Shown here in pieces: positions 1 to 56,176 of a stretch of DNA of 64,000 bases (position 1 is the first letter of the stretch; every line of letters begins with the position of its first letter). The notes beneath the pieces are model-generated. The model saw only the letters and a program-made list of their open reading frames with translations, had not been told where the DNA came from and made no database searches. This DNA is from Selaginella tamariscina. Its lineage: Eukaryota > Streptophyta > Lycopodiopsida > Selaginellales > Selaginellaceae. The position numbers were made by a program, and so were the translations under genes. The DNA is taken from NCBI GenBank assembly GCA_003024785.1, contig PUQB01000045.1, positions 671,028 through 735,027 of the forward strand. Direction: 5' to 3'.

Positions 1-314
1 ACAATATCAAATAATATAAAGAATATTCTAAGTAACAATTAATTATAGTCATAAAGTATTATTTATATGAAATCAGATAATACACTGGCACACAGATTCT
101 AAATCTATAACATAATAATTTTAATGCACTTTTTTAATATTTGACAATTTCAATATAAATTCTGTTAATAATTTTTATGTTAAATTGTAATCATGTCATA
201 AGGCCGTAAGACGAAACAAACTTCCATTAATTGATTTATTTACATGTCTTATTTACGGGGCATGATGACATGTTGACGAGAATAACACTTATAATAGTAA
301 TAGTTCAATTCTGT

Positions 315-831
315 TCATGGACAGAATGTGACGGTAAAATCACCACCAACGTCGCAAGTGAACGTACTAGTAGCATCATCCTTGGACCAGCTATAGGCAT
401 CGGGCATATCCCCTTGACAGTGCTGGAGTAATCAGTCTGAGCATCTTTGTTAGGATTTCGGCATCGGTCTCCCTCTCTGTAGTTTGCAGGACACTGGTCG
501 ATAGAAATCCTGCATACTACATTGCTACCTCCAGCTTGACCATTCCGTATGCAGTTACCACCAGTGTACGAGATTCCCAAACCGACGTTAAATCCGTCCA
601 CCAGACTTATATCCATGGTGTTCTTGTTGTTTTGACCAACGATAGTGAACTCTGCCAGTGTGGATGGCTGTGGGTTTAGCGAGACTCTGCCGGACCATCC
701 ATCGGGTACACTGATGGGGCCAGAAGATTGTCCTGGCCCTAAGTTCATTCCGTTGGCACTCGTGGCTGTGAACTCCAGAGGCCCGCCGGTTCCACAGTTG
801 TTCACAGCCGTTATGCTTGTAGCCAAGGCTC
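315..831 (-). CDS. Thaumatin-like protein (PR-5 family), main exon with one frame break
   Basis: Thaumatin-like proteins are secreted, disulfide-rich pathogenesis-related proteins. The reading frame shows the family core: VNNC near the N-terminus, the SLVDGFNVGL block, GGNC, then CP-NY and KGIC. The frame is lost just after KGICP, and the canonical C-terminus (CPDAYSWSKDDATSTFTC and a terminal TFCP followed by TGA) continues in the next frame to position 315. One missing C near 396 would explain this. The exon starts after a good acceptor (TGCAG) at 832, so the signal peptide lies in an upstream exon. An ATG at about 1049 opening MAIAQSFVAVI is a candidate, but its phase does not join cleanly. 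The encoded length of about 170 residues suits a small thaumatin-like protein. Identity is secure; whether the break is biological is not. Confidence 0.85.
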
Positions 832-5760: not shown

Positions 5761-7352
5761 TTCATGATTAGTCTTAATCTTGGTTGTATTTCTCTTTTCT
5801 ATTTCAATTTATATATATGAATTGTTTTAACTTTGGTTTTGTTTCTTTTTATTTATTCCAACTTCATGAACTGTCTTAACCTTAGTTCTGTTTTTTTTTT
5901 TTTAATTCCAACTTATATTCATAGACCATTCACGAACTATTTTAATCTCAATTTTATTTCTCTCTACCATATATTATCGTTTTATATTGAATGACTATTA
6001 TTCTTCCTCTTATTGTTCTTACCATTGCACCAAGATTCGCAATCATACTGTCTTGTGAATACTAGATTAGATTTGTTTAGAACTTGCATTCTCGTGACCA
6101 AGCCATCCTTAGATTCATGTACATACTATTATGATGATACCTTATAACTGGATGTATAATTTTTTTAGTTTAACATATGGCAACCATGGAGGAATAGTAG
6201 TCCAAGAGTGCACATGGTGTAGAAGAAAATGATGAGAAAGACCAAAAGAATCACAAGTTCAACTACAATGGAAATGGTAAGCATACAAGGGAGAATGGCC
6301 AGCTCAATTACGAGAGTACACACACAAAGGACAAGTGATTTGGGCACATCACTAAAGACACAATTGCACAACACTAAGGATGTGATGAATTTCACCATCA
6401 AAGGTGGAGTACCATCAAAGACTAGATTACCAACCTAAACTGCATTATCAGCTAGAACATGAATACAAACCAAGACTAGAGTATGAATCAAATGGAGTGG
6501 GAGAATGGACCAGAGTATGGATAAGACTGGAGTATGAAATAGTCGGAGTACGAGATATAGCTAAAGTATGGAGTATGAAATTTGAAGGGAGTATGCAATA
6601 TAATAGATGTCAGAACACAAATAATGATATAATCAAAAGAGTTGGAGAGTTTCAATTGGATGAGGTATAATAAATGATATTTAAAGCTATGAAGGGTAAG
6701 AAAAATCAAGATGAAGATGTTTGATTAATTTGAGTGACGAAAGATATGAGAAGAAGATTTGAGTCATGAGTAAAGAGTTGAATAATGAAGTTACGAATGA
6801 AAGTTAGAGAATGAGAAAGAAGATTGGAGTTACGAATGCGAGATTATATAGATGGATCTAAAAGGCTTGAAGAGTAGGGGACGCCTTGGATATATGAGTA
6901 GAGTAGTGAAGATCGTCATATCAAAAGATGGAGAACTACTATCAAAGGCCGAAGCCAAGAATAGAGTAAAAACAGTGAAGAAAATAAAAAGAAAAAGATG
7001 TACTAATTAATTAGTGCTACAAAAGTTATCCAACAACTGGTGTTGAATTGGAATATTGAAAACCTAACCCTAGCCTCCTTTATATATGAGAGCTTGGCGT
7101 CCATGGACCACTGGTGTAGATCTGAATTTAAACCTCCGGTTTTGAACTTGGATCTAGACCACCGATTACAAATCTGAATATGGACTACTGGTTCTGGATC
7201 TGAATCTGGACCATCAGCTCCTGATCTTGGAATATCCTAAGGAATATTCTAATGCTGGCATATACTAATACTAGCATCAGCATCAACTCGGTATCGGCAT
7301 ATTCCAATATTGACATTAGCATCATCTTGGTATATTCTGGTGGTTCATGACA
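5761..7352 (-). other. AT-rich sequence, then probable LTR of the old chromovirus
   Basis: From about 7352 leftwards the minus strand begins TGTCATGAACC directly after a polypurine tract (CGAAGAGGGGGATGG, 7353-7367). This is the expected start of a 3' LTR for the element at 7353-8323. Its other end is not resolved. The stretch holds degenerate short repeats (GACTAGAGTATGAA-like) near 6400-6600. The small open frames here show no recognisable protein family. Confidence 0.4.
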
Positions 7353-8323
7353 CCATCCCCCTCTTCGACGGCGAGTTCCACGAGCTACAACAAGCTTGAC
7401 ATGGTTCGGCAGGGTATTGGCAGTGAAAATGACAATTGCCTCTTGAGCATGAGCAAGATTCTCCTTTGGCTCCCAAGTACGGTCGCTTGGAGAATAACCA
7501 ATCCAATCAACAAGGTAGTAGAGCTTACAATGAAGAAATTTAGAATCCAAGTAGTGGCAACCTTGTACTCTAGTGTACCATCAAGCTCGATTGGTGGTGG
7601 TGGTACCGGGCGGTTGACAAAAGTATTCATAGTATATGGTTCGAGGACAGAGACATGAAAGACCAGATGAACCTTCATGGCTGGGAAGTTGAAGACGAAA
7701 GGCAATATCGTTGATCTTACCAACTAAGAAATGGTCCAAGGTGTTGGTAATCAAGCTTGTCACATGGCCTGGTGTTCTTAAGATTGTGTTGAAAGAGCCA
7801 AACTCGGTCGCCAACTTGAAAAATAGGAGCAGGATGGCAGTGTTGATCAGCAACCGCTTTGTGGGAAGCTTGGGCATGGTGCAAGTGATGAGGCAACTCC
7901 TCGTGAATCCAATGAAGACGATCAAGATGGGCTTTAGTTGATGGGTTCACAGGGACATTAATGTGGGAATGCAAAGACCATCGGGGATGTTGCCCAGTGA
8001 CTGCAAAGAATGGCGACTGACCTGTTGAGGTATGCACTGAGTTGTTGTATGTGAACTCTGTAATGGGCAAAAAGGTCAACCCAATTGTCATGCTGGTAGT
8101 TGCTAAAGCACCGAAGGTACTACTCCATGGTTTGGATGGTACTCTATCTGACCGTCAGTTTGAGGATAGTAACTTGAGGAGAGTCTGCACTAAATATGGA
8201 GGAGCTCGAGCCACTGCTTCCAAAACATGGCAGCAAACTAAGGGCCATGATCATTGACAATGTCCTCTGGCAAGCCATGTAACTGAAAAACCTCTTGTAC
8301 CACTAGATCAACCATCTCTTCAC
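7353..8323 (-). mobile_element. Old chromovirus remnant: integrase C-terminal half and chromodomain
   Basis: On the minus strand, from 8323 down, the frames give the integrase core around the second Asp (LHGLPEDIVNDHGP), then EFTYNNSVHTSTGQSPF, then the GPF-type C-terminal block (GDRVWLFQHNLKNTRPCDKL). A chromodomain follows (YYLVDWIGYSPSDRTWEP). The domain order matches the large nested elements to the right, but the sequence is clearly diverged and frame-broken. The remnant stops exactly where the outer element's LTR begins at 8324, so the outer element or a later rearrangement cut it. Its upstream half is not seen on the other side at 20832. Confidence 0.8.
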
Positions 8324-8636
8324 TGTCACGACCCAATACAGAATACAGGATTCCGGATACAGGATATGGGTTGCAGGACTTTCTTACAGAATATTCCTAC
8401 CAGAAATTCCAGACACAGGATACGGTTGCAGGATATTCCTATAGGATATGCCACAGGATATGCCTAGAGGATAAGGGACATGTGGACTCATCTTAACCTC
8501 TGCATGCATGCAGTCACTTTTGCATGCATGCAACCACTTTTAGCACTCATGCCTAGATTAGCTCTAGGAGTTGTGAGCATAAAAGCTCCGACCTAATTGT
8601 TGTACAATCAGTTACTATCAACACCAGTCTTACTAC
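8324..8636 (+). repeat. Outer 5' LTR, first part (U3 and start of R)
   Basis: Begins TGTCACGACCC. It contains GGATATGGGTTGCAGGACTT-type repeats, tandem GCATGCATGCA runs, a TATA-like GCATAAAAGC near 8577-8586, and the 13-mer CAGTTACTATCAA at 8609-8621, where transcription is predicted to start. It ends at the ACTAC target site (8632-8636). Confidence 0.85.
8609..8621 (+). promoter_or_regulatory. Predicted transcript start and self-complementary R 5' end
   Basis: CAGTTACTATCAA lies about 31 nt downstream of the ATAAAA box, with a CA initiator. It is the exact reverse complement of the candidate primer-binding site at 15088-15100. The same 13-mer is at 20509-20521 in the 3' LTR and, inverted, at 14561-14573 in the inner 5' LTR. 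The inner 3' LTR has 12 of 13 at about 8939-8950. Confidence 0.6.
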
Positions 8637-9224
8637 TGTCAAGCACGATCCAGGAAACAGGAAATGAACAGAATTCCAAGAGTAGGAAGGCTTGACTCAG
8701 GAGCAGGATAGGAAACAAGACAGGAACTAGGAACTTAGGAGCAAGACAAGACGCAGGACAGGATCCAGGAGCTAACAGGAACAGGATAGGATCCGGGAGC
8801 AAGACAGGAAGGCGCAGACCGGATCCAGGAACAAGACAGGAGCAAACAGGATCCTAGAGCAAGACAGAATTGGAAGCAAAGAGTAAGACAAGAACAAGAC
8901 AAGAAAAGGAACAAGAATAATCGTAGAATGACTGGTGTTGATAGTAACTATTGTACAACAATTAGGTCGGAGCTTTTATGCTCACAACTCCAAGAGCTAA
9001 TCTAGGCATGAGTGCTAAAAAGTGATTGCATGCATGCAGAGGCTAAGATGAGTCCACATGTCCCTTATCCTCTAGGCATATCCTGTGGCATATCCTAGAA
9101 TATCCTGTAGGAATATCCTGCAACCGAATCCTGTGTCCGGAATCCTGGTAGGAATATCCTGTAGGAAAGTCCTGCAACCCATATCCTGTATCCGGAAACC
9201 TGTATTCTGTATCGGGTCGTGACA
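8637..9224 (-). repeat. Inner element 3' LTR
   Basis: On the minus strand it starts TGTCACGACCC at 9224 and ends CTTGACA at 8637. A polypurine tract (TTTAGGGAGGAGGTGC) lies just upstream on the minus strand, at about 9225-9240. The U5 half is rich in GGATCCTGT/CTTGCTCCTG phrases. Confidence 0.88.
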
Positions 9225-9235
9225 GCACCTCCTCC

Positions 9236-12200
9236 CTAAAGACGAGTTCCACGAGTCTTGGGACCTGGTTTAGCAGGATAATGCCGATGGAAGGCAGCAA
9301 CCTTGGAAGAAGCATGGAGTAAGTTGGATGCAGGTTCCCAAGTGCGATCAGTAGGCAGGTACCCTTTCCAATCCACCAAGTATTGGAGTTGGTGACGATG
9401 AAGACGAGAGTCAAGGATGGCTGCAACTTCGTACTCAGGTTCAGTGTCAATGACCACAGGAGGGGGAGGAGAAGAAACGCGACCGGAAGAGAAGAAGGAT
9501 GATACGGCTCCAACAAAGAGGTGTGAAACACGGATGAAGTTTCACCGTGGATGGTAACTCGAGTCGGAAAGCTACAGGATTTACCTCCGCCACGATCCTA
9601 TAAGGGCCCAATCGTTGAAAATCCAACTTAGAAGAAGGCCTGTTGGTGCGAATGTGTCGACGAAGAAGCCACACGAGATCACCAATCTTGTATGCAGGTG
9701 CCGGCTGACGGTGAGCATCAGCATGATGCTTGTATCGTTCCTGTGCCTGTTGAAGATGAACCTGGAGATCATCCTGTACCTGCCGAAGATGCTGAAGACG
9801 ATCCTGTACTGCAGGAGCGGAAGAAGGAGAAGCGGGAGGAGCAAAGTCAAAACGTGGATGGTGGCCTGTAAGAGCAAAGAAAGGTGTCTGTCCTGTAGAT
9901 GCGTGGATGGAGTTGTTGTAGGCAAACTCCGCCATTGGAAGGAGGTCCAACCAGTTGTCCTGCTGGTAACTGATGAAGCAACGAAGATACTGTTCTAAGG
10001 TCTGAATTGTGCGTTCGGACTGCCCATCGGTTTGTGGGTGATATCCTGAAGAAAGATCCGCTTTGACCTGTAGACTCCGAAGAAGCTCTCGCCAAAACTT
10101 GGACATGAATTGTGGACCTCGATCGGAAACAATGCTCTCAGGAAGACCATGATGTCGGAACACCTCGCGGATCACCAACTCGGCAGTTGTCTGACCTGTA
10201 GCTGTCTTGTTGCAGGGTAGGAAATGAGCCTGCTTGGTGAAACGGTCAACCACCACAAGAACTGCATCAAACCCACGAGAAGGAGGAAGAATCCATGAGG
10301 AAATCCATAGAAATGGATCTCCAAGGAGCAGAAGGAACAGGAAGAGGACGAAGAAGACCAGAGGGTGCATGATGAGGCATCTTCGACCTGTACAAGTGTC
10401 ACAACTCCGTACAAACCTCTCCACAAAACCTCGCAACCCAGGCCACCAATAGTTGCGAGTCACCAACTCCACTGTCTTGGCCACACCAAAATGTCCTGTA
10501 GCCGGGGTATCATGACAATCCTGTACCACACGAGTCCTGGAAATACCAACAGGAACGTACAGGAGACCTTCCCGGTACAGGAGTCCATCCTGTATGGTGA
10601 ACAGGTTGTAGTCTGGACGGGAACTGGAGGAAGAGGAACTTGCAACGTCAGGATGAATGTGTGAGAACACATTCTTTGCCAAGTCGTCTGTAGCCAACTG
10701 CGAACGGACGTCCTGTAGGAGTGTTGAATTTGCTGGAGCCTGATGAACCTGCAGTGCCGCAAGCCGGAATCGATCAGGACCCAACAACACTTGCCTTTGA
10801 CAGTCAAATGCAGGATCGCCCGGGCTTGGTGCAAGGTAAGAGCGCCTAGACAATGCGTCCGCCTTGCCATTCCGAAAACCGGGCCTGTAGACGATGACGA
10901 AGTCAAAACGTGATAGGAACTCTGCCCACCTAGCCTGTCGCCGACTGAGAACTCGAGCCGTTTGAAAGTACTCCAGGTTCTTGTGATCCGTAAGAACTTG
11001 TACAGGATGTGCAGCACCTTCCAGGAAATGCCGCCACTCCTCAAACGAATCCACAATGGCCTTGAGTTCCTTGTCATGAATCTCGTAATTGATCTCCGCC
11101 GACAGGAACTTACGAGAGTGAAAAGCTACAGGATGAAGCAACTTGTCCTCTCCAACTTGCGATAGGACGGATCCTACTGCAAAATCCGAGGCATCTGCTT
11201 CAAAGAAAGGATGAGAAGGGTCAGGATGTGCTAAAATCGGAGCTGTCGTGAAGGTCCTTGAGTGTTGTGAATGTGTTCCGCCTTGTCGGACCAAGAGAAA
11301 ACCTGTGCGCTTGGTGAGTTCCGTGAGTGGAAGTACACGCTTGGAGAAGTCCTGTATGAACCGCCTGTAGAAGTTTGCAAAGCCAAGGAAACATTGTACA
11401 TCTCGTACAGACTTGGGCCTCTCCCACTCCACGATGGTCTTCACCTTGTGCATGTCCATGGAAACGCCAGCAGGAGAGACGATGTAGCCCAAGAACTCCA
11501 CCGAATCCCTATCGAAAAAACACTTCTCCAACTTCGCGTATAGGCCATGCTCGCGAAGCCGCTCTAGAAACTAGCGTACATGCTTGTCATGTGCCGCCTG
11601 GTCCTTGGAGAAAATCAAATGTCGTCGAGGTAGATCACCACAAACTGGTCCAAGAAGTCACGAAAATGTCGTTCACCATGTGTTGGAACACGGCTGGGGC
11701 ATTGGTAAGGCCGAAAGGCATTACCGTGTACTCAAATGTCCATACCTTGTACGAAAGGCAGTCTTCCACTCATCGCCGGGACGAATCCGTACAAGGTTGT
11801 AGGCCCTCGTAAGTCGATCTTCGTGAACACCTTTGCTCCTCGCAGCCGATCGAGAAGTTCCGGGATCAATGGCAACGGGTACCGATTCCGAATGGTGACT
11901 TGATTCAAACCCCTGTAGTCCACAACCAAACGTAAACTCCCATCCTTCTTCTTGACAAAGAAGATAGGCGCTCCTGCAGGGGACTTTGAGTGACGAATGA
12001 AGCCGGATGCCAAGTTGTCCTCGATGTACTGACGAAGAACCTCCAACTCTGTGGGTGACAATGCATAAATCGGTCCGAATGGTGGAGTCTTTCCTTCTGC
12101 AAGATCAATAGGACAGTCGTAGGACCTGTGAACAGGAAGAACTGCAGCCTTGTGCTTGTCAAAAACGTCCTTAAAGTCGTGGTACTTGGATGGTAGGGAA

Positions 12201-14180
12201 GAAGGAGGAGAAGGAGAAGGAGAAGGAGAAAACAGGAGAGTCGGATACAGGAAAGGTAGAAGAGGACGTAGGAGTTACTTGAAAGGCAAAAAGGTGGAAA
12301 GGAGCAGGATCAGTGGCGAGTTCATGCATGGTAGTGGTAAGAACTCGGAGAGGAGAAGGAGGGAGCTGTGACTGAAAAAGAGGAAGGATCTTGGGGGTGG
12401 AACAGAAGAGGTAACAGAAAGAGAGGATTGGAAAAACCTGTGTGGATGTTGATGAGTGTACAGGATTGGAAGAATCCTGTACAGAGTCCGTGGTTGCGCA
12501 GAGTGGAAGAAGCCTGCGAATGTGCTGACGAATCAACAGGAGGTGGATCCTGTTGAGGAGGAACCTTCGACACTGATACAGGATTGGAAGAACCCTGTAC
12601 AGGACACCGCAAACTTACAGGAGTGGAGAGAGCCTGCGGATGTGCTGAGGAACTGACATGAGGTGAATCCTGTCGAGGAGGAGTCTTCAACACTGGTACA
12701 GGAACAGGCACGGTCAATCCTGTAGCTTGTACTGCCTCAGATACTAAGGATGTATCCTGCACACAGGAAGGTACAGGATTGATCCTAGCTGTGGAGAGGA
12801 AAACGTGAGCGTCCTAGACCTCCAGTCGATCTGCGGATTTGCAACAACGAACCATGGCATGCCCAAAATGATGGGAGTCGACCGAGTCTTGATCAAGTTG
12901 AAGGAAATTGAACAGTTGAATGTGCCATACTGCAGAGAGAGGTTCGGTAGCATGGGTAACTGCGCCAGAAGCAATTAGACGCCCATCGGCCACCTCTACA
13001 GGAACTGCACGCTTCAACTTCACCACCGAAATGCCATGTTGAGTTGCAAACGTGTCATCCATGAAGCATGCATTTGCACCAGTGTCTAACAAGGCAAACT
13101 CCATGAGCTCTCGATTATTAAGATGAATGTGTACAGGAAACTTAAGTGATGGATGGTATGAGCAGCACCAATGGAGCCTGCACCTACGTCCAACTTCGCG
13201 GCTCCTAGACGAAGTGGACATTGGAGTTTTCCGACTGAACTTCAGCTTCAACTTCACGCGTCTTGAAGTTCCTGGCTTTAATAGGACAATCTGCCACCTT
13301 GTGTCCTGCTCCACCACAATACAAGCACAGGTTCTCACTGCGACGACGTTGCTTCTCAGCAGCGGAAAGAGGCCACGCTTGGATTTCTCAACCTCCATAG
13401 GAACTACTCCAGAAGGTGGTGCAGGAACATGTACCACAGCTGCAGGATTGGTTTGCAGGAACTGCTGACGGGATCTTTCCTGACGACGCTCGAACAAACG
13501 GTTGTCGCAACGAACAGCTTGTTGCATGATCTCCGCTAATGTTTGGGCATCCGGTAACGTAAGGGAGAAGGTCCTTCACGTCATCCCTCAACCCAAAACG
13601 GAAGTGTTCGATCAATGCAGTCTCGTCCCATGGAATGTTCGTGCAAAGTTGCTGAAATTCGGATGCATAGACGGAAGCTGGTCGGGATCCTTGAGTGAGC
13701 TTCCGTAACTTCGTGCATGCAGAACGGTACTTATCAGGATCTCCAAAACAGGCTTCAAAGGCAGCCACGAAACCTTCAAAGTCTTCCATCAATGGGTCGT
13801 CACGCTCCAGCAAGGGGCAACCCAAGCCCGTGGAGATCCACTTAGTAAGGATGCCAAAAGACCCACCTTTTGAGCATCAGTCGAGTAGCGCCGTGGTTGC
13901 ATACGGATCAAGAGCCGGATCTGATTCAGGAAACCTTGGAAATCGGCACGATTGCCACTGAACTTCTCTGGCATGCTAACCTTCGGCTCCGAAGAAAATT
14001 TGATGAAGAGGGAACCACCGATGCCTGGGAGAGAGCCTGCGCAGCAGCCTTGGAGGATGCATCAGCAGCTGCATGTGCCGCAGTGGTGGAACCTTGCAGG
14101 TCGGTGACCACTTGGCGCAAAGTGGCCAGCTCATGAAGTAACATTTGGTGCTCGCGTTGAAAGCGCTCAAAATCAGCCAT
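9236..14180 (-). CDS. Inner element Gag-Pol with chromodomain, frame-broken
   Basis: Order on the minus strand: Gag starting [11 protein letters not shown] at 14180; a capsid-like region ([19 protein letters not shown]); a CX2CX4HX4C zinc knuckle near 13270-13310 ([10 protein letters not shown], then a break); an aspartic protease ([10 protein letters not shown], about 13090); a Ser/Pro-rich linker (12300-12760); reverse transcriptase; RNase H ([19 protein letters not shown]); integrase with zinc-finger, D, D(35)E; and a terminal chromodomain ([17 protein letters not shown]). The longest open stretch is 9447-11531. Several single-base breaks interrupt the rest, including the segment carrying the catalytic YLDD region at 11530-11740. 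RNase H and integrase read like Tf1/sushi-type chromoviruses. Family certain; coding competence doubtful. Confidence 0.88.
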
Positions 14181-14255
14181 GATCTAGGAAAGAAAAAGAG
14201 GAAAATGAAGGAAAAGAATCAAGAAAAAGGTAGCTGGAAAACGGAGACTATGAAG

Positions 14256-14268
14256 CAGTTACTATCAA
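14256..14268 (-). other. Candidate self-priming primer-binding site, inner element
   Basis: On the minus strand TTGATAGTAACTG begins 2 nt after the 5' LTR end (14271). It is not TGG-initiated, so it does not look like a tRNA 3'-end complement. It is the reverse complement of the R start of the same LTR (plus-strand positions 14561-14573). Confidence 0.6.
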
Positions 14269-14270
14269 AC

Positions 14271-14834
14271 TGTCAAGCCACGATCCAGGAACCAGGAAAG
14301 AACAGGATTCCAAGACAGGAAGGCTTGACTCAGGAGCAGGATAGGACAGACAGGAACTAGGAACTCAGGAGCAAGACAAGACAGGACAGGATCCAGGAGC
14401 AGACAGGAACAGGATAGGATCCGGGACAAGACAGGAAGGCAGGACGGATCCAGGAACAAGACAGGAGCAGACAGGATCCGGAGCAAGACAGGAAGGAAGC
14501 AAAGAGGAAGACAAGAACAAGACAAGAACAAGAACAAGAAAATCGTGTAGAAGACTGGTGTTGATAGTAACTGATTGTACAACAATTAGGTCGGAGCTTT
14601 TATGCTCACAACTCCAAGAGCTAATCTAGGCATGAGTGCTAAAAGTGATTGCATGCATGCAGAGGCTAAGATGAGTCCACATGTCCCTTATCCTCTAGGC
14701 ATATCCTGTGGCATATCCTGTAGGAATATCCTGCAACCGAATCCTGTTCGGAATCCTGGTAGGAATATCCTGTAGGAAAGTCCTGCAACCCATATCTGTA
14801 TCCGGAAACCTGTATTCTGTATCGGGTCGTGACA
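14271..14834 (-). repeat. Inner element 5' LTR
   Basis: A 564-bp LTR running from TGTCACGACCC at 14834 to CTTGACA at 14271 on the minus strand. It carries the TATA-like CATAAAAGC and the R-start 13-mer. It abuts the second half of the outer LTR at the ACTAC duplication. Confidence 0.9.
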
Positions 14835-14839
14835 ACTAC

Positions 14840-15085
14840 GATCAATCTCGTCATGTCTTGTTCTTGTCTTGTTTCCTGTCCTGCTCCTGTCTCGCTCCTA
14901 TTTCCTGTCCGGTTCCTGGGTCCTGTCCTGCTCCTGTCTTGCTCCCGGATCTATCCTGATCCTGTCTTGCTCCTAGATCCGTCCTGTTCCTGTTCCTAGT
15001 TCCTGTCTGCTCTCGGTTACTTTTGAGTCAGGCCTTCTGTTCCTGAATCCTGCTCTCTTCCTGTTTCCTGGATCGTGGCTTGACA
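14840..15085 (+). repeat. Outer 5' LTR, second part (rest of R and U5)
   Basis: Resumes with GATCAATCTCGTC exactly where 8636 left off, as judged against the 3' LTR. It is rich in TCCTG/CTTGTCTTG phrases and ends GTGGCTTGACA. Confidence 0.88.
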
Positions 15086-15087
15086 GT

Positions 15088-15100
15088 TTGATAGTAACTG
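15088..15100 (+). other. Candidate self-priming primer-binding site, outer element
   Basis: TTGATAGTAACTG lies 2 nt after the LTR end and is exactly complementary to CAGTTACTATCAA at 8609-8621 and 20509-20521. No TGG-type tRNA primer site is seen at the LTR edge. Confidence 0.62.
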
Positions 15101-15176
15101 CTTCATAGTTCTCCGTTTTCCAGCTACTTTTTCTTGATTCTTTTCCTTCATTTTCCTCCTTTTTCTTTCCTAGATC

Positions 15177-18100
15177 ATGGCTGATTTTGAGTGCTTTCAA
15201 CGCGAGCACAAATGTTACTTCATGAGCTGGCCACTTTGCGCCAAGTGGTCACCGACCTGCAAGGTTCCACCAATGCGGCACATGCAGCTGCTGATGCATC
15301 CTCAAGGCTGCTGCGCAGGCTCTCTCGCAGGCATCGGTGGTTCCTCTTCATCGAACTTTTCTTCGGAGCCGAAGGTTAGTATGCCAGAGAAGTTCAATGG
15401 CAATCGTCGATTTCAAGGTTTCCTGAATCAGATCCGACTCTTGATCCGTATGCAACCACGGCGCTACTCGACTGATGCTCAAAAGGTGGGTCTTTTGGCA
15501 TCCTTACTAAGTGGATCTCCACGGGCTTGGGTTGCCCCCTTGCTGGAGCGTGACGACCATTGATGGAAGACTTTGAAGGTTTTGTGGCTGCCTTTGAAGC
15601 CTGTTTTGGAGATCCTGATAAGTACCGTTCTGCATGCACGAAGTTACGGAAGCTCACTCAAGGATCCCGACCAGCTTCCGTTTATGCATCCGAATTTAGC
15701 AACTTTGCACGAACATTCATGGGACGAGACTGCATTGATCGAACACTTCCGTTTTGGGTTGAGGGATGACGTGAAGGACCTTCTCCTTACGTTACCGGAT
15801 GCCCAAACATTAGCAGAGATCATGCAACAAGCTGTTCGTTGCGACAACCGTTTGTTTGAGCGTCTCAGGAAAGATCCCATCACAGTTCCTGCAAACCAAT
15901 CCTGCAGCTGTGGTACATGTTCCTGCACCACCTTCTGGAGTAGTTCCTATGGAGGTTGAGAAATCCAAGCGTGGCTCTCTTCCGCCTGAGAAGCAACGTC
16001 GTCGCAGTGAGAACCTGTGCTTGTATTGTGGTGGAGCAGGACACAAGGTGGCAATTGTCCTATTAAAGCCAGGAACTTCAAGACGTGTGAAGTTGAAGCT
16101 GAAGTTCAGTCGGAAAACTCCAATGTCCACTTCGTCTAGGAGCCGCGAAGTTGGACGTAGGTGCAGGCTCCATTGGTGCTGCTCATACCATCCATCACTT
16201 AAGTTTCCTATACACATTCATCTTAATAATCGAGAGCTCATGGAGTTTGCCTTGTTAACACTGGTGCAAATGCATGCTTCATGGATGACACGTTTGCAAC
16301 TCAACATGGCATTTCGTGGTGAAGTTGAAGCGTGCAGTTCCTGTAGAGGTGGCCGATGGGCGTCTGATTGTTTCTGGCGCAGTTACCCATGCTACCGAAC
16401 CCTCTCCTGCAGTTATGGCACATTCAACTGTTCAATTTCCTTCAACTTGATCAAGACTCGGTCGACTCCCATCATTTTGGGCATGCCATGGTTCGTTGTT
16501 GCAAATCCGCAGATCGACTGGAGGTCTAGACGCTCACGTTTTCCTCTCCGACAGCTAGGATCAATCCTGTACCTTCCTGTGCAGGATACATCCTTAGTAT
16601 CTGAGGCAGTACAAGCTACAGGATTGACCGTGCCTGTTCCTGTACAGTGTTGAAGACTCCTCGACAGGATTCACCTCATGTCAGTTCCTCAACACATCCG
16701 CAGGCTCTCTCCACTCCTGTAAGTTTACGGTGTCCTGTACAGGTTCTTCCAATCCTGTATCAGTGTCGAAGGTTCCTCCTCAACAGGATCCACCTCCTGT
16801 TGATTCGTCAGCACATTGCAGGCTTTTCCCACTCCTGCGCAACCACGGACTCCTGTACAGGATTCTTCCAATCTGTACACTCATCAACACCACACAGTTT
16901 TTTCCAATCTGCCTCTTTCTGTTACCCTGCTTCTGTTCCACCCCCCAAGATCCTTCCTCTTTTTCAGTCACAGCTCCCTCCTTCTCCTCTCCGAGTTCTT
17001 ACCACTACCATGCATGAACTCGCCACTGATCCTGCTCCTTTCCACCTTTTGCCTTTCAAGTAACTCCTACGTCCTCTTTACCTTTCCTGTATCCGACTCT
17101 CCTATTTTTCAATCTCCTTCTCCTTCTCCTTCTCCTTCTCTCTTCTTCCCTACCATCCAAGTATCACGCCTTTAAGGACGTTTTTGACAACACAAGGCTG
17201 CAGTTCTTCCTATTCACAGGTCCTACGACTGTCCTATTGATCTTGGAAGGAAAGACTCCACCATTCGGACCGATTTATGCATTGTCACCCACAGAGTTGG
17301 AGGTTCTTCGTCAGTACATCGAGGACAACTTGGCATCCGGCTTCATTCGTCACTCAAAGTCCCCTGCAGGAGCCTATCTTCTTTGTCAAGAAGAAGGATG
17401 GGAGTTTACGTTTGGTTGTGGACTACAGGGGTTTGAATCAAGTCACCATTCGGAATCGGTACCCGTTGCCATTGATCCCGGAACTTCTCGATCGGCTACG
17501 AGGAGCAAAGGTGTTCACGAAGATCGACTTACGAGGGGCCTACAACCTTGTACGGATTCGTCCCGCGATGAGTGGAAGACTGCCTTTCGTACAAGGTATG
17601 GACATTTTGAGTACACGGTAATGCCTTTCGGCCTTACCAATGCCCCAGCCTGTTCCAACACATGGTGAACGACATCTTTCGTGACTTCTTGGACCAGTTT
17701 GTGGTGATCTACCTCGACGACATCTTGATTTTCTCCAAGGACCAGGCGGCACATGACAAGCATGTACGACTAGTTCTAGAGCGGCTTCGCGAGCATGGCT
17801 TGTACGCGAAGTTGGAGAAGTGTTTTTTCGATAGGGATTCGGTGGAGTTCTTGGGCTACATCGTCTCTCCTGCTGGCGTTTCCATGGACATGCACAAGGT
17901 GAAGACCATCGTGGAGTGGGAGAGGCCCAAGTCGGTACGAGATGTACAATGTTTCCTTGGCTTTGCAAACTTCTACAGGCGGTTCATACAGGACTTCTCC
18001 AAGCGTGTACTTCCACTCACAGAACTCACCAAGCGCACAAGGTTTTCTCTTGGTCCGACAAGGCGGAACACATTCACAACACTCAAGGACGTCTTCACGA

Positions 18101-20107
18101 CAGCTCCGATTTTAGCACATCCTGACCCTTCTCATCCTTTCTTTATTGAAGCAGATGCCTCGGATTTTGCAGTAGGATCCGTCCTATCGCAAGTTGGAGA
18201 GGACAAGTTGCTTCATCCTGTAGCTTTTCACTCTCGTAAGTTCCTGTCGGCGGAGATCAATTACGAGATTCATGACAAGGAACTCAAGGCCATTGTGGAT
18301 TCGTTTGAGGAGTGGCGGCATTTCCTGGAAGGTGCTGCACATCCTGTACAAGTTCTTACGGATCACAAGAACCTGGAGTACTTTCAAACGGCTCGAGTTC
18401 TCAGTCGGCGACAGGCTAGGTGGGCGGAGTTCCTATCACGTTTTGACTTCGTCATCGTCTACAGGCCCGGTTTTCGGAATGGCAAGGCGGACGCATTTTA
18501 GGCGCTCTTACCTTGCACCAAGCCCGGGCGATCCTGCATTTGACTGTCAAAGGCAAGTGTTGTTGGGTCCTGATCGATTCCGGCTTGCGGCACTGCAGGT
18601 TCATCAGGCTCCAGCAAATTCAACACTCCTACAGGACGTCCGTTCGCAGTTGGCTACAGACGACTTGGCAAAGAATGTGTTCTCACACATTCATCCTGAC
18701 GTTGCAAGTTCCTCTTCCTCCAGTTCCCGTCCAGACTACAACCTGTTCACCATACAGGATGGACTCCTGTACCGGGAAGGTCTCCTATACGTTCCTGTTG
18801 GTATTTCCAGGACTCGTGTGGTACAGGATTGTCAATACCCCGGCTACAGGACATTTTGGTGTGGCCAAGACAGTGGAGTTGGTGACTCGCAACTATTGGT
18901 GGCTGGGTTGCGAGGTTTTGTGGAGAGGTTTGTACGGAGTTGTGACACTTGTAGCAGGTCGAAGATGCCTCATCATGCACCCTCTGGTCTTCTTCGTCCT
19001 CTTCCTGTTCCTTCTGCTCCTTGGAGATCCATTTCTATGGATTTCCTCACAGATCTTCCTCCTTCTCGTGGATTCGATGCAGTTCTTGTGGTGGTTGACC
19101 GTTTCACCAAGCAGGCTCATTTCCTACCCTGCAACAAGACAGCTACAGGTCAGACAACTGCTGAGTTGGTGATCCGTGAGGTGTTCCGACATCATGGTCT
19201 TCCTGAGAGCATTGTTTCCGATCGAGGTCCACAATTCATGTCCAAGTTTTGGCGAGAGCTTCTTCGGAGTCTACAGGTTAAAGCGGATCTTTCTTCAGGA
19301 TATCACCCACAAACCGATGGGCAGTCCGAACGCACAATTCAGACCTTGGAACAGTATCTTCGTTGCTTCATCAGTTACCAGCAGGACAACTGGTTGGACC
19401 TTCTTCCAATGGCGGAGTTTGCCTACAACAACTCCGTTCACGCATCTACAGGACAGACACCTTTCTTTGCTCTTACAGGCCACCATCCACGTTTTGACTT
19501 TGCTCCTCCCGCTTCTCCTTCTTCCGCTCCTGCAGTACAGGATCGTCTTCAGCATCTTCGGCAGGTACAGGATGATCTCCAGGTTCATCTTCAGCAGGCA
19601 CAGGAACGATACAAGCATCATGCTGATGCTCACCGTCAGCCGGCACCTGCATACAAGATTGGTGATCTCGTGTGGCTTCTTCGTCGACACATTCGCACCA
19701 ACAGGCCTTCTTCTAAGTTGGATTTTCAACGATTGGGCCCTTACAGGATCGTGGCGGAGGTAAATCCTGTAGCTTTCCGACTCGAGTTACCATCCACGGT
19801 GAAACTTCATCCTGTGTTTCACACCTCCTTGTTGGACCGTATCATCCTTCTTCTCTTCCGGTCGTGTTTCTTCTCCTCCCCCTCCTGTGGTCATTGACAC
19901 TGAACCTGAGTACGAAGTTGCAGCCATCCTTGATTCTCGTCTTCATCGCCACCAACTCCAATACTTGGTGGATTGGAAAGGGTATTTGCCTACTGATCGC
20001 ACTTGGGAACCTGCATCCAACTTACTCCATGCTTCTTCAAGGTTGCTGCCTTCCATCGGCATTATCCTGCTAAACCAGGTCCCAAGACTCGTGGAACTCG
20101 TCTTTAG
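15177..20107 (+). CDS. Outer element Gag-Pol with chromodomain, frame-broken
   Basis: Same domain order as the inner copy, on the plus strand: Gag from ATG 15177 ([11 protein letters not shown]); capsid-like block about 15380-15850; zinc knuckle [10 protein letters not shown] at about 16020; protease about 16240 (the DTG is broken by an indel here); Ser/Pro linker 16560-17160; reverse transcriptase about 17280-17960, with [13 protein letters not shown] near 17705; RNase H 18140-18500 ([20 protein letters not shown]); integrase 18800-19820, with [23 protein letters not shown] and [14 protein letters not shown]; and a chromodomain at 19940-20040 ([17 protein letters not shown]). It ends GTRL-stop at 20107. 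Isolated indels split it into several frames, mostly at positions different from the inner copy. Confidence 0.88.
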
Positions 20108-20118
20108 GGAGGAGGTGC

Positions 20119-20831
20119 TGTCACGATCCGATACAGAATACAGGATTCCGGATACAGGATATGGGTTGCAGGACTTTCCTACAGGATTTCGGATACAGGA
20201 TATGGGTTGCATGACTTTCCTACAGGATATTCCTACCAGGATTCCGGACATAGGATATGGTTGCAGGATATTTTACAAGATATGCCACAGGATATGCCTA
20301 GAGGATAAGGGACATGTGGACTCATCTTAGCCTCTGCATGGGTTGTAGGACTTTCCTACAGGATTCCGGATACAGGATATGGGTTGCAGGACTTTCCTAC
20401 AGGATATTCCTAGTCACTTTTGCATGCATGCAACCACTTCTAGCACTCATGCCTAGATTAGCTCTTGGAGTTGTGAGCATAAAAGCTCTGACCTAATTGT
20501 TGTACAATCAGTTACTATCAACACTAGTCTTACTATGATCAATCTCGTCTTGTCTTGTTCTTGTCTTGTTTCCTGTCCTGCTCTTGTCTCGCTCTTGTTT
20601 CATGTCCTGCTCCTGGATCCTGTCCTGCTCCTGTCTTTTCCGGATCCTGTCTTGTTTTTGTCTTATTCCTGGATCCTGTCTTGCTCCTGGATCCTATCCT
20701 GATCCTGTCTTGCTCCTGGATCTGTCCTGTTCCTGTTCCTAGTTCCGTCCTGCTCTCGTCCTATTCCTGAGTCAAGCCTTCCTATTCTTGGAATCCTGCT
20801 CTCTTCCTGGTTCCTGGATCGTGGCTTGACA
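20119..20831 (+). repeat. Outer element 3' LTR with expanded U3 minisatellite
   Basis: A 713-bp LTR, about 150 bp longer than the outer 5' LTR (559 bp in two parts). The excess is extra copies of a roughly 40-bp U3 unit (GGATACAGGATATGGGTTGC plus AGGACTTTCCTACAGGAT), inserted near 20160-20220 and again at 20340-20410. A polypurine tract, GGGAGGAGGTGC, precedes it at 20107-20118. A TATA-like element is at 20478-20485. Confidence 0.88.
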
Positions 20832-30821: not shown

Positions 30822-31024
30822 TGTAAGATACTGTATATTAGGTAAGTACCGTATATACGCATGTGTATATACGCACATGCGTAGTGACACATGGGTGGTG
30901 ATCTGGCCCCCATGTGTCAGCGCCACGTGTCGCATGTGTGCCACGTGGCAGGAGACCTCCTGTATATAAGCAGGGTTTTTGTAAACTAAATATCAGATTT
31001 TCATTTAATATATCTGCTCTTTCA
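30822..31024 (+). repeat. 5' LTR of the young element
   Basis: Starts TGTAAGATACTG and ends CTCTTTCA. It contains an imperfect palindrome (GCATGTGTATATACGCACATGC), CACGTG-type boxes (GCCACGTGTCGC, GCCACGTGGC) and a TATA box (TGTATATAAGC near 30960). CACGTG is the core of plant G-boxes, so bZIP/bHLH control is possible. Confidence 0.93.
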
Positions 31025-31077
31025 TTGGTGGAGAAGTTGGGTATTCCTTTCTTCCGCATTTTCTTTTTCTTGTTTCC

Positions 31078-32160
31078 ATGACAATGAACATGGAGACGGC
31101 TTTTAGCATTATTGCTACTGCTATTGATGCACAAACTAAGTTGTTGGAGCGCTTCGTTGAGGGTCCGTCCTCCTCTTCCCCGTCTGAGCCTCATGCCGGG
31201 GGATCTGCTTCTAGTACTCCTTCATCTTCTTCACAGGCCACAAATCCGAGGGTTCGACCCCGATCTTTTTGTGGTGATCCGGGAGATGATGTATACCACT
31301 GGTTTGATCATTTCCAAGTCATTGTTCGTTACCATGGTTGGGATGAGGCCCGTGCTCTCAGAGAATTCCCTACATGTTTGGAAGGCCCTGCGCTCAAGTG
31401 GTATAATGGATTGGCTGCGGAGATTCAAGCCAATAGTAATCGGTTAACGGAATGTCTCAAACGTACGTTTGGCAAAGTTGAGGATTCAGATGATGCTTTC
31501 CAACAACTGCATGCGATACGACAACATCCTGGTGAGTCTGTTATGCGGTTTAGTATTAGGTTCGGGGATTTAGTTCGGCGTGCGTATCCTAACATGCCTG
31601 AGCCTATTAAGCTCGGTATGTTATGGCCAACTATGCGACCCGAACTTGTTCGATTCGTTCGGGCTCTTCGTCCTACCACATTGGAGGAAGCTTTTGCACT
31701 AGCTCAACGTTTTGAGTTGGTGCCTGGTGAGGGCCGTGTTCCCCTTGGGTTACCTGCTCCTCTTGTTCAGCGTGCTGATCCAATGGAGGTTGATGCTGCT
31801 GCATATGTGCCCGCACGACAAGCCTTTCGTGGTCGACCTCGGGGCCCACCCCGTAGACCACCTCCACGAAATCGTCCTGCACCTGCTCCAGTTCCTGCCC
31901 GTGGTGGTCAAAATCCACGGATTCGTGACAGGAGGAATCGGAACAATGCAGGTCAACCCAATCAAGTTCACTGCTGGGCCTGTTGGGCACCTGGACATAC
32001 TTGGCGGGCATGCGATGTGTATCCTGATTGGCGTCCACCACATCCAGGCTGGCGACCATATGTTCCGGATGGTGTACCTGTGGCGGCCATTATGTCTGAT
32101 GATGAGCTTCCAGATGATGACGCTTCTCTTGCGGGTGGATCTGTTGCGGAAAACCAGTAA
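31078..32160 (+). CDS. Gag polyprotein of the young element
   Basis: An intact 360-codon frame from ATG 31078. A retrotransposon Gag-type capsid region at about residues 60-190 contains DDVYHWFDHF, LKWYNGL and the block around HPGESVMRFSIRF. A basic, Pro/Arg-rich stretch follows, then a single CX2CX4HX4C zinc knuckle (CWACWAPGHTWRAC, about residue 300) and an acidic tail. Gag assembles the virus-like particle and binds element RNA. The protease frame begins about 30 nt downstream in another frame. Confidence 0.9.
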   Translation: MTMNMETAFSIIATAIDAQTKLLERFVEGPSSSSPSEPHAGGSASSTPSSSSQATNPRVRPRSFCGDPGDDVYHWFDHFQVIVRYHGWDEARALREFPTCLEGPALKWYNGLAAEIQANSNRLTECLKRTFGKVEDSDDAFQQLHAIRQHPGESVMRFSIRFGDLVRRAYPNMPEPIKLGMLWPTMRPELVRFVRALRPTTLEEAFALAQRFELVPGEGRVPLGLPAPLVQRADPMEVDAAAYVPARQAFRGRPRGPPRRPPPRNRPAPAPVPARGGQNPRIRDRRNRNNAGQPNQVHCWACWAPGHTWRACDVYPDWRPPHPGWRPYVPDGVPVAAIMSDDELPDDDASLAGGSVAENQ

Positions 32161-32189
32161 TCGTACGGGCGACGGAGGGATCCCGTGCG

Positions 32190-35100
32190 ATGGAAACTCC
32201 ACCTCCATGTTTTTTTCGCTATGCATATCAAGGGTTGCAAGTTCCACCAAATCATCCAGTTTTCACATTTTCTGCACGAGTGAATGATGTTTCAGTCACA
32301 GTACTTGTGGATACAGGATCTAGCATGTCTTCCATAACTACTTCTCTGGCGCATCGGTGCTCATTACCCTTGAGACGAGCAGATAAGGTCTTGCACATTT
32401 TATATGGTAATGGGCAGTCTCGTGCAGTATCACAGTACACCACTTCGACTACACTAGTTATGGGTGCCAACTGTAAGTTTCCCTCTGGGTCTCTTAGGGT
32501 TGTCCCTTCCCAGGTCTTTGACATCATTCTGGGATGTGATTGGTTAAAGCAGTCGAAAGGTACATGTGATTTTTCACTCTCTCCTCCTGTATTACGCTTG
32601 GAGTCTGTGTCTTTGCAGTCTGTTCCTTTACGTCCAGAGAAGTTTGTTGCTGTTTGTATCACGCATACAGCTCCTTTGATTCCGGTCTTGGGTGGTGTTC
32701 ATCTCAACAGGTTCAAATGCCGGATCCGTCACCTGAGTGTCGAGCACACTGCATCGAACAACTTAAGAAACAGTATGCAAGTTTGTTCAAATTTGATCTG
32801 TCCCAAGGTGCACGTGTGAAGACTCGACACTGTATACCCACCGGCAATGCAAAGCCTTTCAAAGTCCCGGTTCGACGCAGGTCACCAAAGGAGTTATCAG
32901 CCATGCGAACAGCTGTTACTGATATGATTGGTAAACGAGTGTGTCGTCCGTCACGGAGTCCATGGGCATGTGAACCTCATTTGGTTCCCAAGCCTGATGG
33001 ATCTCTCCGATTTTGTGTGGATTACCGACCTCTTAACGATGTTACCATCAAAGATGTCTATCCACTTCCGAACTCTGCCGATCTATTAGATCGTTTGGGT
33101 CAGAGTCGATGGTTTACTAAGTTGGATTTGGCATCAGGATATTGGCAGGTTCCTATGCTGAGGAGGATATTCCAAAAACGGCCTTCCGGACACCATTTGG
33201 TCTTTACGAGTTTTTGGTCATGCCTTTTGGATTGACTTCAGCTCCTGCCACCTTTCAACGCATGATGGATGAGCTTCTTTCCGATATGCCTGATATCACT
33301 GCCGATTTTATCGACGATGTGCTCATTCATGGGTCTGGTTCTTGGGAGGATCACATTCGTGATGTACGGCGCGTTCTTGATCGATTTCGAGAAGTTGGCC
33401 TGAAGTTGAAACTTGAAAAGTGTGTGTTTGGTTCGACCGACACCACTTACTTGGGTTACCGTATATCTCGAGAGGGTTTACAGGTGGATCCAATGAAGTT
33501 GCGAGCTGTTCGAGAGTTCCTCGTCCCGTACAGTACAGGAAGTCCACGTTTCTTGGGCACGGTGCAGTACTTGGGTCGATTATCGATCATCTCACTGATC
33601 GAACTGCCCCTCTTCGGGAGTTAGTTCGTCACAGGTATCTTTCAGGTGGACTCGCAGGTGTCAGCAGGCATTTGACCAGTTAAAAGAGTTCCTGACAACT
33701 CCACCATTGCTTCAATACCCAGATTTTACTCGTCCGTTCATTTTACGAGTAGATGCCTCAGATGTTGGTATTGGTGGTGTATTGATGCAAACTGATGCTG
33801 TGGATTCTTCAATTCGACACCCGGTGGCTTACATTAGTCGAGTACTCACGCCGGCTGAGCGGAATTATTCCACTACTGAAAAAGAATGCCTTGCTGCTGT
33901 TTGGGGTTTTGAACGACTTCATGCCTACTTACATGGGAGTGAAACACTTTTGGAGTGTGATCATGCTGCTGTCACTTCCTTATTAAAACGGAAGAATTTA
34001 GTGGGTCGCGTAGCCAGATGGGCATTACGTCTCCAGGTATATAACTTTAAGGTGGTGCACAGGCCTGGGCGAACAATGGTGGATGCGGATGCACTTTCTC
34101 GAGCACCCCTCTCCGATTCCACTTTGCCTGCTCATGCAGTAGCTGCAGCATTCGGTTTGATACAAGCCCCTCAGGTATTCGATGCCGACTTACCATCCTT
34201 GGAACAGTGGCAGGATGCTCAAAAACATGAACCATGGACGAGGCAATTACGCGATGCGTTTGCAATTCCGTCTTCCGAACCTCGGTTTCGACAATATCAT
34301 GCTCAGTTTCGACTTCAGGATGGTTTATTGTATTTTATTGGGACAAATCCAGAGGACAGATGGCGTTTGGCTGTACCCTCTACATATGTTCCACACCTTC
34401 TTCGAGCATATCATGATTCACCTATTGTTGGAGGTCATCTTGGTCATCAACGAGTGTTGGAGAAGCTGCGCCGATCATTTTATTGGCCAAGCATGCGTGG
34501 TGATGTGATCAGGTATATTCAAAGTTGTCCCACTTGTCAAACTCGGAATTCCTCTACGACTCGGGCCATGGGAGTGTTGGAATCCATCAATGTCTCTCGC
34601 CCTTTTGAGTTAATTGCAGTGGATTTAATGGGACCTTTTCCACGTTCTTCTCAAGGTAACCAGTACATCATTGTTGTATCCGATTATTTAACTCGATGGG
34701 TAGAGGTTGGTGCTCTTCCGGATGCAACTGCCATGTCAACAGCTTTGTTTCTGTTCGATAATGTGGTTTTGCAGCATTCTTGTCCAGAGCGGATGTTATC
34801 AGACAATGGCCCCGCTTTCATTGCAGAGGTATTCCGAGTGTTGTGTGAGAGGTTAGGGGTAAAACATTCATTTGCCTCTCCGTATCATCCACAAACTGAT
34901 GGTTTGGTGGAGCGATTGAATCGGACCTTCAAGGGTATGATCTCGAAGTATGTGAACTTCAATCACACGGACTGGGATTGGTATTTGCGATGTTTGAGAT
35001 TTGCTTATGTAACAGGCATTCAGAGTTCGATTGGTATCTCTCCATTCAAGGCATTGTATGGATATGATCCTAAGTTGCCTAGTGAATTGGGGTTATCATC

Positions 35101-35554
35101 GAATCTGCCACGTGCCGAGGATGCAAAGATGTGGGCTCGACATTTGGATGCTGTTTTGCCTCTTCTGCGTGCAGAGTCTGCTGAACATCTTGGTCGAGCT
35201 CAAATGCGGCAGCAATCTTCTTACAATGCACGACATCAAATTCCACCAGATTTTGCTGACGGTGACTTAGTCCTGGTACGTTTTCCCAAGCTGACTGCAC
35301 CTGGGCTTGCAACTGGTTTATTACACAAGTGGCTTGGTCCCTACCGAGTACTCCGAAAGGTTGGTCCTCAGGTATATCAAGTAAAGTTGGTGGGATCTCA
35401 TGAGGTTGAGATAGTTCACGTGGTTCGAATGAAACGGTTTGTCGTTCGAGACTCGTTGAGTACATTTGGTCATACCTTAGATGGCCCAGCTCACACGGAT
35501 CCAGGACCATCAGATCCATCACCATCTACACAGCCGCAGGGGAGGATAGTGTAA
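32190..35554 (+). CDS. Pol of the young element: protease, RT, RNase H, integrase (frame-broken)
   Basis: Frames follow one another with small overlaps: 32190-32819 aspartic protease (VLVDTGSSMSS, ILGCDWL); 32654-33235 first half of reverse transcriptase (SPWACEPHLVPKPDGSLRF, FTKLDLASGYWQVPM); 33142-33624 second half (FLVMPFGLTSAPATFQRMMD, with FIDD at the catalytic site rather than the usual YLDD/YVDD); 33707-35554 RNase H (VDASDVGIGGVL), HHCC zinc finger (ending CPTCQ), integrase core (VVSDYLTRWVEVG, LSDNGPAF, YHPQTDGLVERLNRTF) and a GPY-type C-terminus (HKWLGPYRVLRKVG). No chromodomain. The last codons run 5 bp into the 3' LTR. At least three frame changes occur in a copy with near-identical LTRs. 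Confidence 0.9.
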
Positions 35555-35756
35555 GATACTGTATATTAGGTAACGTACCGTATATACGCATGTGTATATA
35601 CGCACATGCGTAGTGACACATGGGTGGTGATCTGGCCCCCATGTGTCAGCGCCACGTGTCGCATGTGTGCCACGTGGCAGGAGACCTCCTGTATATAAGC
35701 AGGGTTTTTTTGTAAACTAAGATATCAGATTTTCATTTAATATATCTGCTCTTTCA
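35550..35756 (+). repeat. 3' LTR of the young element
   Basis: 207 bp, identical to the 5' LTR except for an extra C (GTAACGTACC), two extra T in the poly-T after GCAGGG, and an extra G (CTAAGATATC). There are no substitutions by eye. Confidence 0.93.
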
Positions 35757-37299
35757 ATGTGTCAATTTTAAAATATTAAAAAACTTTTCTTTCTCTCTTA
35801 ACTTTAAGAATGCATTAAAAATTTATATAATATAACTAGCTGAGCGTTTAAAGCTACGGCAAATAATAATTAATACATAACATATTTCAGATTATATTTC
35901 TTAATTTGAACTAATGATATATTCTGATGCATAAACCTCTCGTTGAAAACTATATGTTATAAGATTAAGAAATAATTTCTTAATCTATGGTTAAAACTTA
36001 ATTGTTTATCTATGCTATATCCTTAAATATATACAGTGTATCAAAAACTTAAGATGTTAACAAAATTTCCTAAGATAAATCATCCAATTGAGATAAACCA
36101 TAAGTACATTATAATCAATGGTATTTCATATAAAAGTAGTTGCCACATTTATTCTTAGATAAAATTTAAAATTAAAACACGCTCGTTGAAAATAATATGT
36201 TTCACATATTGTTACCTAAACTCTGTATTCATAAATTAATAAATATTTTCATATGTATACATGGAGTATATGGATACAATATATGTACCTATATATGAAT
36301 ATAAAGTATAGCTTTGACAATTGTTACATACTAAATAGTTATCAATGTTTTAAAAATAAAACTCAAAAGAAAATTTAGTTAAAATATATCTCTAGAATAC
36401 ATTTTGTTTTGGAAATCTTGTTCTTGCTTAATTAATCGGAGAGAGAGAGAGAGAGAGTGTGTTAAAATATACTAAAGATAAAAAGATTACTGTTATAAAT
36501 CTTATCCCACTCGGTTAAAATTTAGAATAAAAAATATAATCTAAAGCATTATATTAAAATATATTTTTAAGATACACTATATATTCAATATGTGAACCAT
36601 AAGTTGTGTGGAAAAAGAATAATTACACTTTATATACATTGTAACAAATATAATTAAGACTTCTACTTATATTAATCATAGTTATTTAAGCAAATCATGT
36701 ATAAAAGATTTTTTGAATTTCAAATGCACATTAGATAATGCTGGTGTGCACTACAACTACATGCTTGATTATCTTTTTAATTTAATATACTATAAAATAA
36801 TAAATTTTAATTTAAAAAAGTAATAAAATTAATAAATAATAAATTAATAATTAATATATACACATTAAATATAGTTTGTTCTTACTATATAGTATACTAT
36901 GTATGGGTATATCGTTATATATAAATTAAGAGGCCTGATAGGCCCTTTGGCCCCTCTTTGTTTTAATTTAATTAATTTTAATTAATTGATTAATAAACAC
37001 TAAACACAAAAAAACATGGGTTAGTTTGTTAGAATACGTCTCTTATTATTTAGGAAGGATTTAAAATGCTTAAATGCTATGACATGGAGGAAAATCCTAA
37101 TGAAATAAGTTAAAAAAAAAAATATGTATTTATAAAACATTAATTTTTATTTATAATACAAAATGGGACACTTGCAGCACTAGGGTTTGCAAATCAGATC
37201 TTAAAAGACTCTCAATGTAGTACAAAACCAAAAAATCAAAAAAATAATTACACACACACAAACATGTATGTATATTCTTATGTATGTATTTAACACATA

Positions 37300-51733: not shown

Positions 51734-56176
<4,443 letters not shown>

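Follow-up and report, generated by a model that had tools for sequence, protein, structure and literature searches.

How reverse transcription is primed in a chromovirus whose primer site carries no TGG is the question raised by two nested copies in the window (the whole stretch of DNA analysed, 64,000 nucleotides). The answer strongly supported by the sequence, with a probability of about 90%, is that this high-copy element of a probable fern would use the 5' end of its own RNA. According to the proposed scheme, transcription would start at the A of a CA dinucleotide about 31 nt after ATAAAA, and the first 12 nt of the transcript (AGTTACTATCAA) would fold back over a few hundred nucleotides to pair with the site TTGATAGTAACT, to which they are complementary and which lies 2 nt past the 5' LTR. 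By analogy with Tf1, RNase H would then cut past the 12th base, freeing a 3' end to be extended through the 2-nt gap into U5. The primer strand would later be copied into a new primer site, which would keep primer and site in step.

Nested copies and their primer region

The nesting of one copy inside the 5' LTR of another was found as the preliminary description had reported it, and its positions for the primer site and the LTR complements, including the single lost base, were all correct when re-checked (Table 1). The inner copy is flanked by a 5-bp duplication, ACTAC (8634-8638 and 14835-14839). Comparison of the flanks of the outer copy, TTCAC and TCCAT, revealed no matching target-site duplication, so that its ends (8324 and 20831) may derive from more than one insertion. 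The assignment of the window element to chromoviruses is borne out by Pfam matches to reverse transcriptase (RT), RNase H, integrase, SH3_Tf2-1 and Chromo. Read by eye from the sequence, the cage positions of the chromodomain are Y, W and Y, i.e. type I with an aromatic cage; this type is not specific to the Tcn1 clade, since Chlamyvir and Galadriel have it too.

Table 1. Positions of the features of the two nested chromovirus copies in the window
Feature	Position	Strand	Basis or remark
Outer chromovirus copy	8324..20831	+	sequence; interrupted by inner copy
Inner chromovirus copy, inside outer 5' LTR	8639..14834	-	self-alignment
Outer 5' LTR, part one	8324..8638	+	sequence, self-alignment
Outer 5' LTR, part two, terminal CA	14835..15085	+	sequence, self-alignment
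Outer 3' LTR	20119..20831	+	sequence
Inner 5' LTR	14271..14834	-	sequence, self-alignment
Inner 3' LTR	8639..9224	-	sequence, self-alignment
TATA-like ATAAAA, outer 5' LTR	8579..8584	+	30 nt before C of CA initiator
TATA-like ATAAAA, outer 3' LTR	20479..20484	+	sequence
Self-primer sequence, outer 5' LTR	8609..8621	+	predicted transcript start at A, 8610
Self-primer sequence, outer 3' LTR	20509..20521	+	sequence
Self-primer sequence, inner 5' LTR	14561..14573	-	exact
Self-primer sequence, inner 3' LTR	8938..8950	-	last base lost
Primer-binding site, outer copy	15088..15100	+	2 nt past LTR
Primer-binding site, inner copy	14256..14268	-	sequence
Reverse transcriptase (end) and RNase H	17662..18501	+	Pfam RVT_1, RT_RNaseH
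Integrase with Tf2-1-like SH3 domain	18272..19897	+	Pfam rve, SH3_Tf2-1 3.4e-17
Chromodomain	19911..20042	+	Pfam Chromo, E 6.7e-13
Polypurine tract AGGGAGGAGGTGC, precedes outer 3' LTR	20106..20118	+	by eye

Elsewhere in the window, a thaumatin-like gene (308..826, minus strand) shares 85% identity with Adiantum capillus-veneris and 83% with a second Adiantum species, across 82% of the query. Judged by this one gene, the host is probably a fern; a second protein, compared for the same purpose, had no homologue. A second, diverged chromovirus fragment occupies 7185-8323 (minus strand); its chromodomain lies at 7188-7550, and 7982-8183 shares 71% identity with the window element's integrase region. 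Another Ty3/gypsy-like element with gag, RNase H and integrase (30822-35759, plus strand) lies between direct repeats of 206 and 210 bp (97.6% identity), and the domain search gave no chromodomain match in it. A PPR-repeat gene fragment (53208-53618, minus strand) fits a land-plant host.

In both nested copies, the primer-site 13-mer TTGATAGTAACTG begins 2 nt (GT) past the terminal CA of the 5' LTR. The distance from the first base of ATAAAA to the C of CA is 30 nt in the three LTRs measured. The expected count of a 13-nt match is 8.5e-6 in the 712-nt 3' LTR, based on base composition, which agrees with the earlier estimate of about 1 in 100,000. Under the rule of Neumann et al. 2019 (PMC6317226), an element counts as self-priming when a stretch of 10 bp or more, beginning 0-5 bp downstream of the 5' LTR, is complementary to that LTR. 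Here, 13 bp are complementary and start 2 nt after the LTR.

Mature tRNAs end in CCA, and tRNA priming needs TGG at the site. TGG was sought 0-5 nt after the LTR, where the letters are GTTTGATAGTAACTG, and was absent; nor does it occur anywhere in the first 20 nt downstream of the LTR. Without TGG at the site, no mature tRNA 3' end fits. The preliminary description had pointed to the tRNAs of the species as possible better partners of the site, and none fits better in the set compared, which comprised 73 tRNAs in 62 loci, 59 of them distinct (63 of 15,756 candidates scored), and was incomplete, with Met, Asp, Trp and others missing. At the 3' end, none of the 59 distinct tRNAs exceeded a match of 9 of 13 bases to the primer. 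The best internal match was also 9 of 13, and in 591 of 1000 trials a shuffled primer reached at least 9 within one tRNA or another. One could still argue that reverse transcription is primed by a tRNA or half-tRNA, the match in the LTR being incidental, given that the tRNA set is incomplete, that tRNA priming is the commonest mode in plant elements and that half-tRNAs serve some copia lineages (both according to PMC6317226). We consider this extremely improbable in view of the missing TGG, of the best match of 9 of 13 with its internal counterpart at shuffle level, and of the recurrence of the LTR complement with different letters in related families (see below).

The exact 13-mer is present 4,950 times (2468 + 2482) in the 300.7-Mb assembly, as opposed to 8 times (1 + 7) for the reversed control. 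Exact 13-mer matches served to retrieve 20 loci of the family that cover candidate copies; because own-genome loci were picked in this way, conservation within the family is not a free test. When the inner copy of the window was added to the 20 loci, a complete LTR pair was found in 12 of 21 cases. Seven of these 12 copies had identical 5-bp duplications, and their LTR distances ranged from 0.002 to 0.196. The family thus appears to be both old and recently active. In all but one of the 16 start sites of the fetched loci, TATA and CA were spaced 30 nt apart.

Covariation of primer and primer site between families

Searches with the RT gave 7139 matches. The best 120 of these 7139 were mostly without an organism name; those named among them were Rhizopus (two rows), Parasitella and the fish Cirrhinus, with an RT identity to these chromoviruses of 55-59% in the matches listed. 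An RT-alignment scan of prokaryote genomes yielded 30 chromovirus-like loci (L111-L140), which we read as eukaryotic contaminants in bacterial bins. Ten contigs with such elements were assigned to one bin named Trichormus; as Trichormus is the genus of the Azolla cyanobiont, these contigs are probably derived from Azolla. No relatives were found in two scans of viral contigs. In an RT tree of 40 rows, which included the named fungal and fish rows and contained no named seed-plant chromovirus, the window element was placed in a set of ten rows (support 100/98) together with L111, L112 and L113. The six other Trichormus-bin loci of the tree and P0012 formed a second clade (100/97). The two groups joined at weak support (82/64), and the named fungal and fish rows fell outside them.

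In 25 of the loci, the sequence extended far enough to include a primer site. Five of these (L111, L113, L116, L118 and L119) showed 11 or more complementary bases at a gap of exactly 2 nt, and each had a TATA box; when the same stretches were shuffled 200 times, the mean was 0.395 loci, or 0.005 with a TATA box, the conditions on gap and TATA box having been fixed after an earlier look at related loci. The other 20 loci, some of which may lack a complete 5' LTR, contained no such match. L140, which stands outside the 25-locus count, had the same geometry. In L115, the primer site was without an exact partner in its own 5' LTR, and the start region was altered. The more distant contigs L127 and L129 contained 14 and 11 complementary bases at gaps of 3 and 1 nt, respectively. 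The ends of these two contigs overlap exactly (55 and 101 nt), and they are possible one-LTR circles or assembly artefacts.

The letters of the primer vary among related families (TTGTCGAGACTG, TTGATCAAGAGT, TTGTTCACCTT, TTGTTCGCCTT). In the covariation table of five families, all selected for having 11 or more complementary bases, 58 of 60 cells are paired, and nine of 12 columns have changed on both sides, with more than one pair type. When the primer of one family was set against the site of another, only 5-8 of 12 bases matched, except for 10-11 in the near-identical L116 and L118, which are one compensated pair apart. Covariation of the two 13-mers, which the preliminary description had proposed to test in family members genome-wide, is thus seen here between related families, in which the two sides change together to other letters.

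Complementarity within the genome, leader folding and the predicted transcript start

Among 5' pairs of own-genome loci, 25 of 33 were complementary over all 12 bases, in a scan that tolerated few substitutions, so that worse pairs would be missed. The span between primer and site varied from 134 to 391 nt. One or two uncompensated mismatches were present in the remaining eight pairs. Drift of the two 13-mers without compensation, named at the outset as evidence against self-priming, hence does occur, yet seven of the nine substitutions involved are C-to-T or G-to-A, as in decay after insertion, and the mismatched pairs look like the decay of dead copies. The 13th base of the site was lost or changed in L034, a young copy with an LTR distance of 0.009, and in L038, both with the inner 12 bases kept; it also differs in L095 and L101, each with an inner mismatch. 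A varying 13th base beside a stable inner 12 points to a primer of 12 nt which starts at the A of CA.

Of 18 leaders folded with RNAfold, 17 contained the helix between primer and site in their best structure, and 16 formed all 12 pairs. In 19 of 25 leaders, an inverted repeat (GTCAAGCC / GGCTTGAC) connects the end of the LTR with U5. A second flanking duplex, after the primer site, was not clearly above shuffles in the eight leaders tested.

Seven sites, three of them with identical primer letters, were compared for the end of the complementarity: in five it coincided with the A of CA, and in the other two it lay one base beyond. A TATA motif was located 32-33 nt before the predicted-start A in seven of eight sites; the same spacing in L118 was read from letters only, at a site near the contig end. 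These boundaries bear on another explanation, namely that the inverted pair serves RNA packaging or dimerisation, or is a promoter element, and that the true primer is something else. Complementarity by itself does not prove priming, and additional hairpins occur at this place in some relatives. Nevertheless, we regard this explanation as very unlikely, as the pair is located exactly where primer and site must be, at the predicted start and 2 nt past the LTR, and ends at that start or one base beyond.

The extra hairpins are formed by a primer-site-like sequence at the end of U3, which pairs with the first transcript bases in L111, L116, L118, L119, L140 and an LTR-like stretch on the 3' side of L115. 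They comprise 12-13 bp across the predicted transcript start, with energies of -14.5 to -22.5 kcal/mol that were matched by none of 500 U3 shuffles in each case, and they covary with primer and site, being of the A-type in L116 and of the G-type in L118. The hairpin is absent from the window family and from L113. We infer that it may hide the 3' copy of the primer: in RNA, U3 precedes the 3' copy alone, so that the 5' end would be left as the only partner of the site. It is tempting to speculate, although the odds are rather against so full a picture, that ferns harbour at least two old lineages of self-priming chromoviruses, one of which, together with a soil-derived relative, would carry a further copy of the primer-site sequence in U3, forming a start-spanning hairpin of 12-13 bp that acts as a three-way pairing switch.

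Comparison with known and predicted self-priming elements

Priming by the 5' end of its own RNA would bring the window family close to Tf1 of fission yeast, which is likewise a chromovirus and whose transcript 5' end pairs just after the 5' LTR, as it would here according to the predicted start. Self-priming of Tf1, reportedly described by Levin in 1995, is said to involve a primer pairing of about 11-12 nt. Tf1 RNA is described as a pretzel with two flanking duplexes besides the primer duplex (PMC10085805); only one of these, before the primer site, has a counterpart in the window family, and the host of Tf1 belongs to a different kingdom. For Tj1, self-priming has been proposed (PMC4600332). 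The mucoralean and fish (sushi type) chromoviruses differ in standing outside the group of the window element and the Trichormus-bin loci, which itself has weak support (82/64).

As for plants, the preliminary description knew of no self-priming element, which is incorrect. According to Neumann et al. 2019 (PMC6317226), self-priming is predicted in 12% of the LTR elements of plants, represented by Tcn1 chromoviruses of mosses and club-mosses and by TAR copia elements. TAR elements resemble the window family as plant LTR elements predicted to self-prime (PMC6317226), but belong to the Ty1/copia superfamily, with a different kind of pol. The Tcn1 clade shares with it the occurrence in non-seed plants, a caged chromodomain and predicted self-priming (PMC6317226). 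According to Novikova et al. 2010 (PMC2864245), plant Tcn1 elements are known only from mosses and Selaginella, no primer site was found in SM-Tcn1, and PCR for Tcn1 in 26 ferns and horsetails detected none. The fern clades other than Tcn1 given there include Mordred and lineage 'b' (both with Adiantum pedatum) and Galahad, known as RT fragments (PMC2864245), and the window element could belong to one of these.

Among the titles and abstracts listed in searches of open-licence papers, none dealt with a self-priming element in a fern. Self-priming chromoviruses probably extend to ferns, where the PCR survey had argued that Tcn1-like elements are lacking. Through the covariation, the predicted transcript start can be placed to within one or two bases, and the family, with its thousands of exact site copies, lends itself well to tests of self-priming in a natural plant setting. 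Compared with the elements above, the window family represents a well-supported new case of an already known mechanism, to which the probable fern host, the covariation between families and, in some relatives, the hairpin across the predicted transcript start are new additions.
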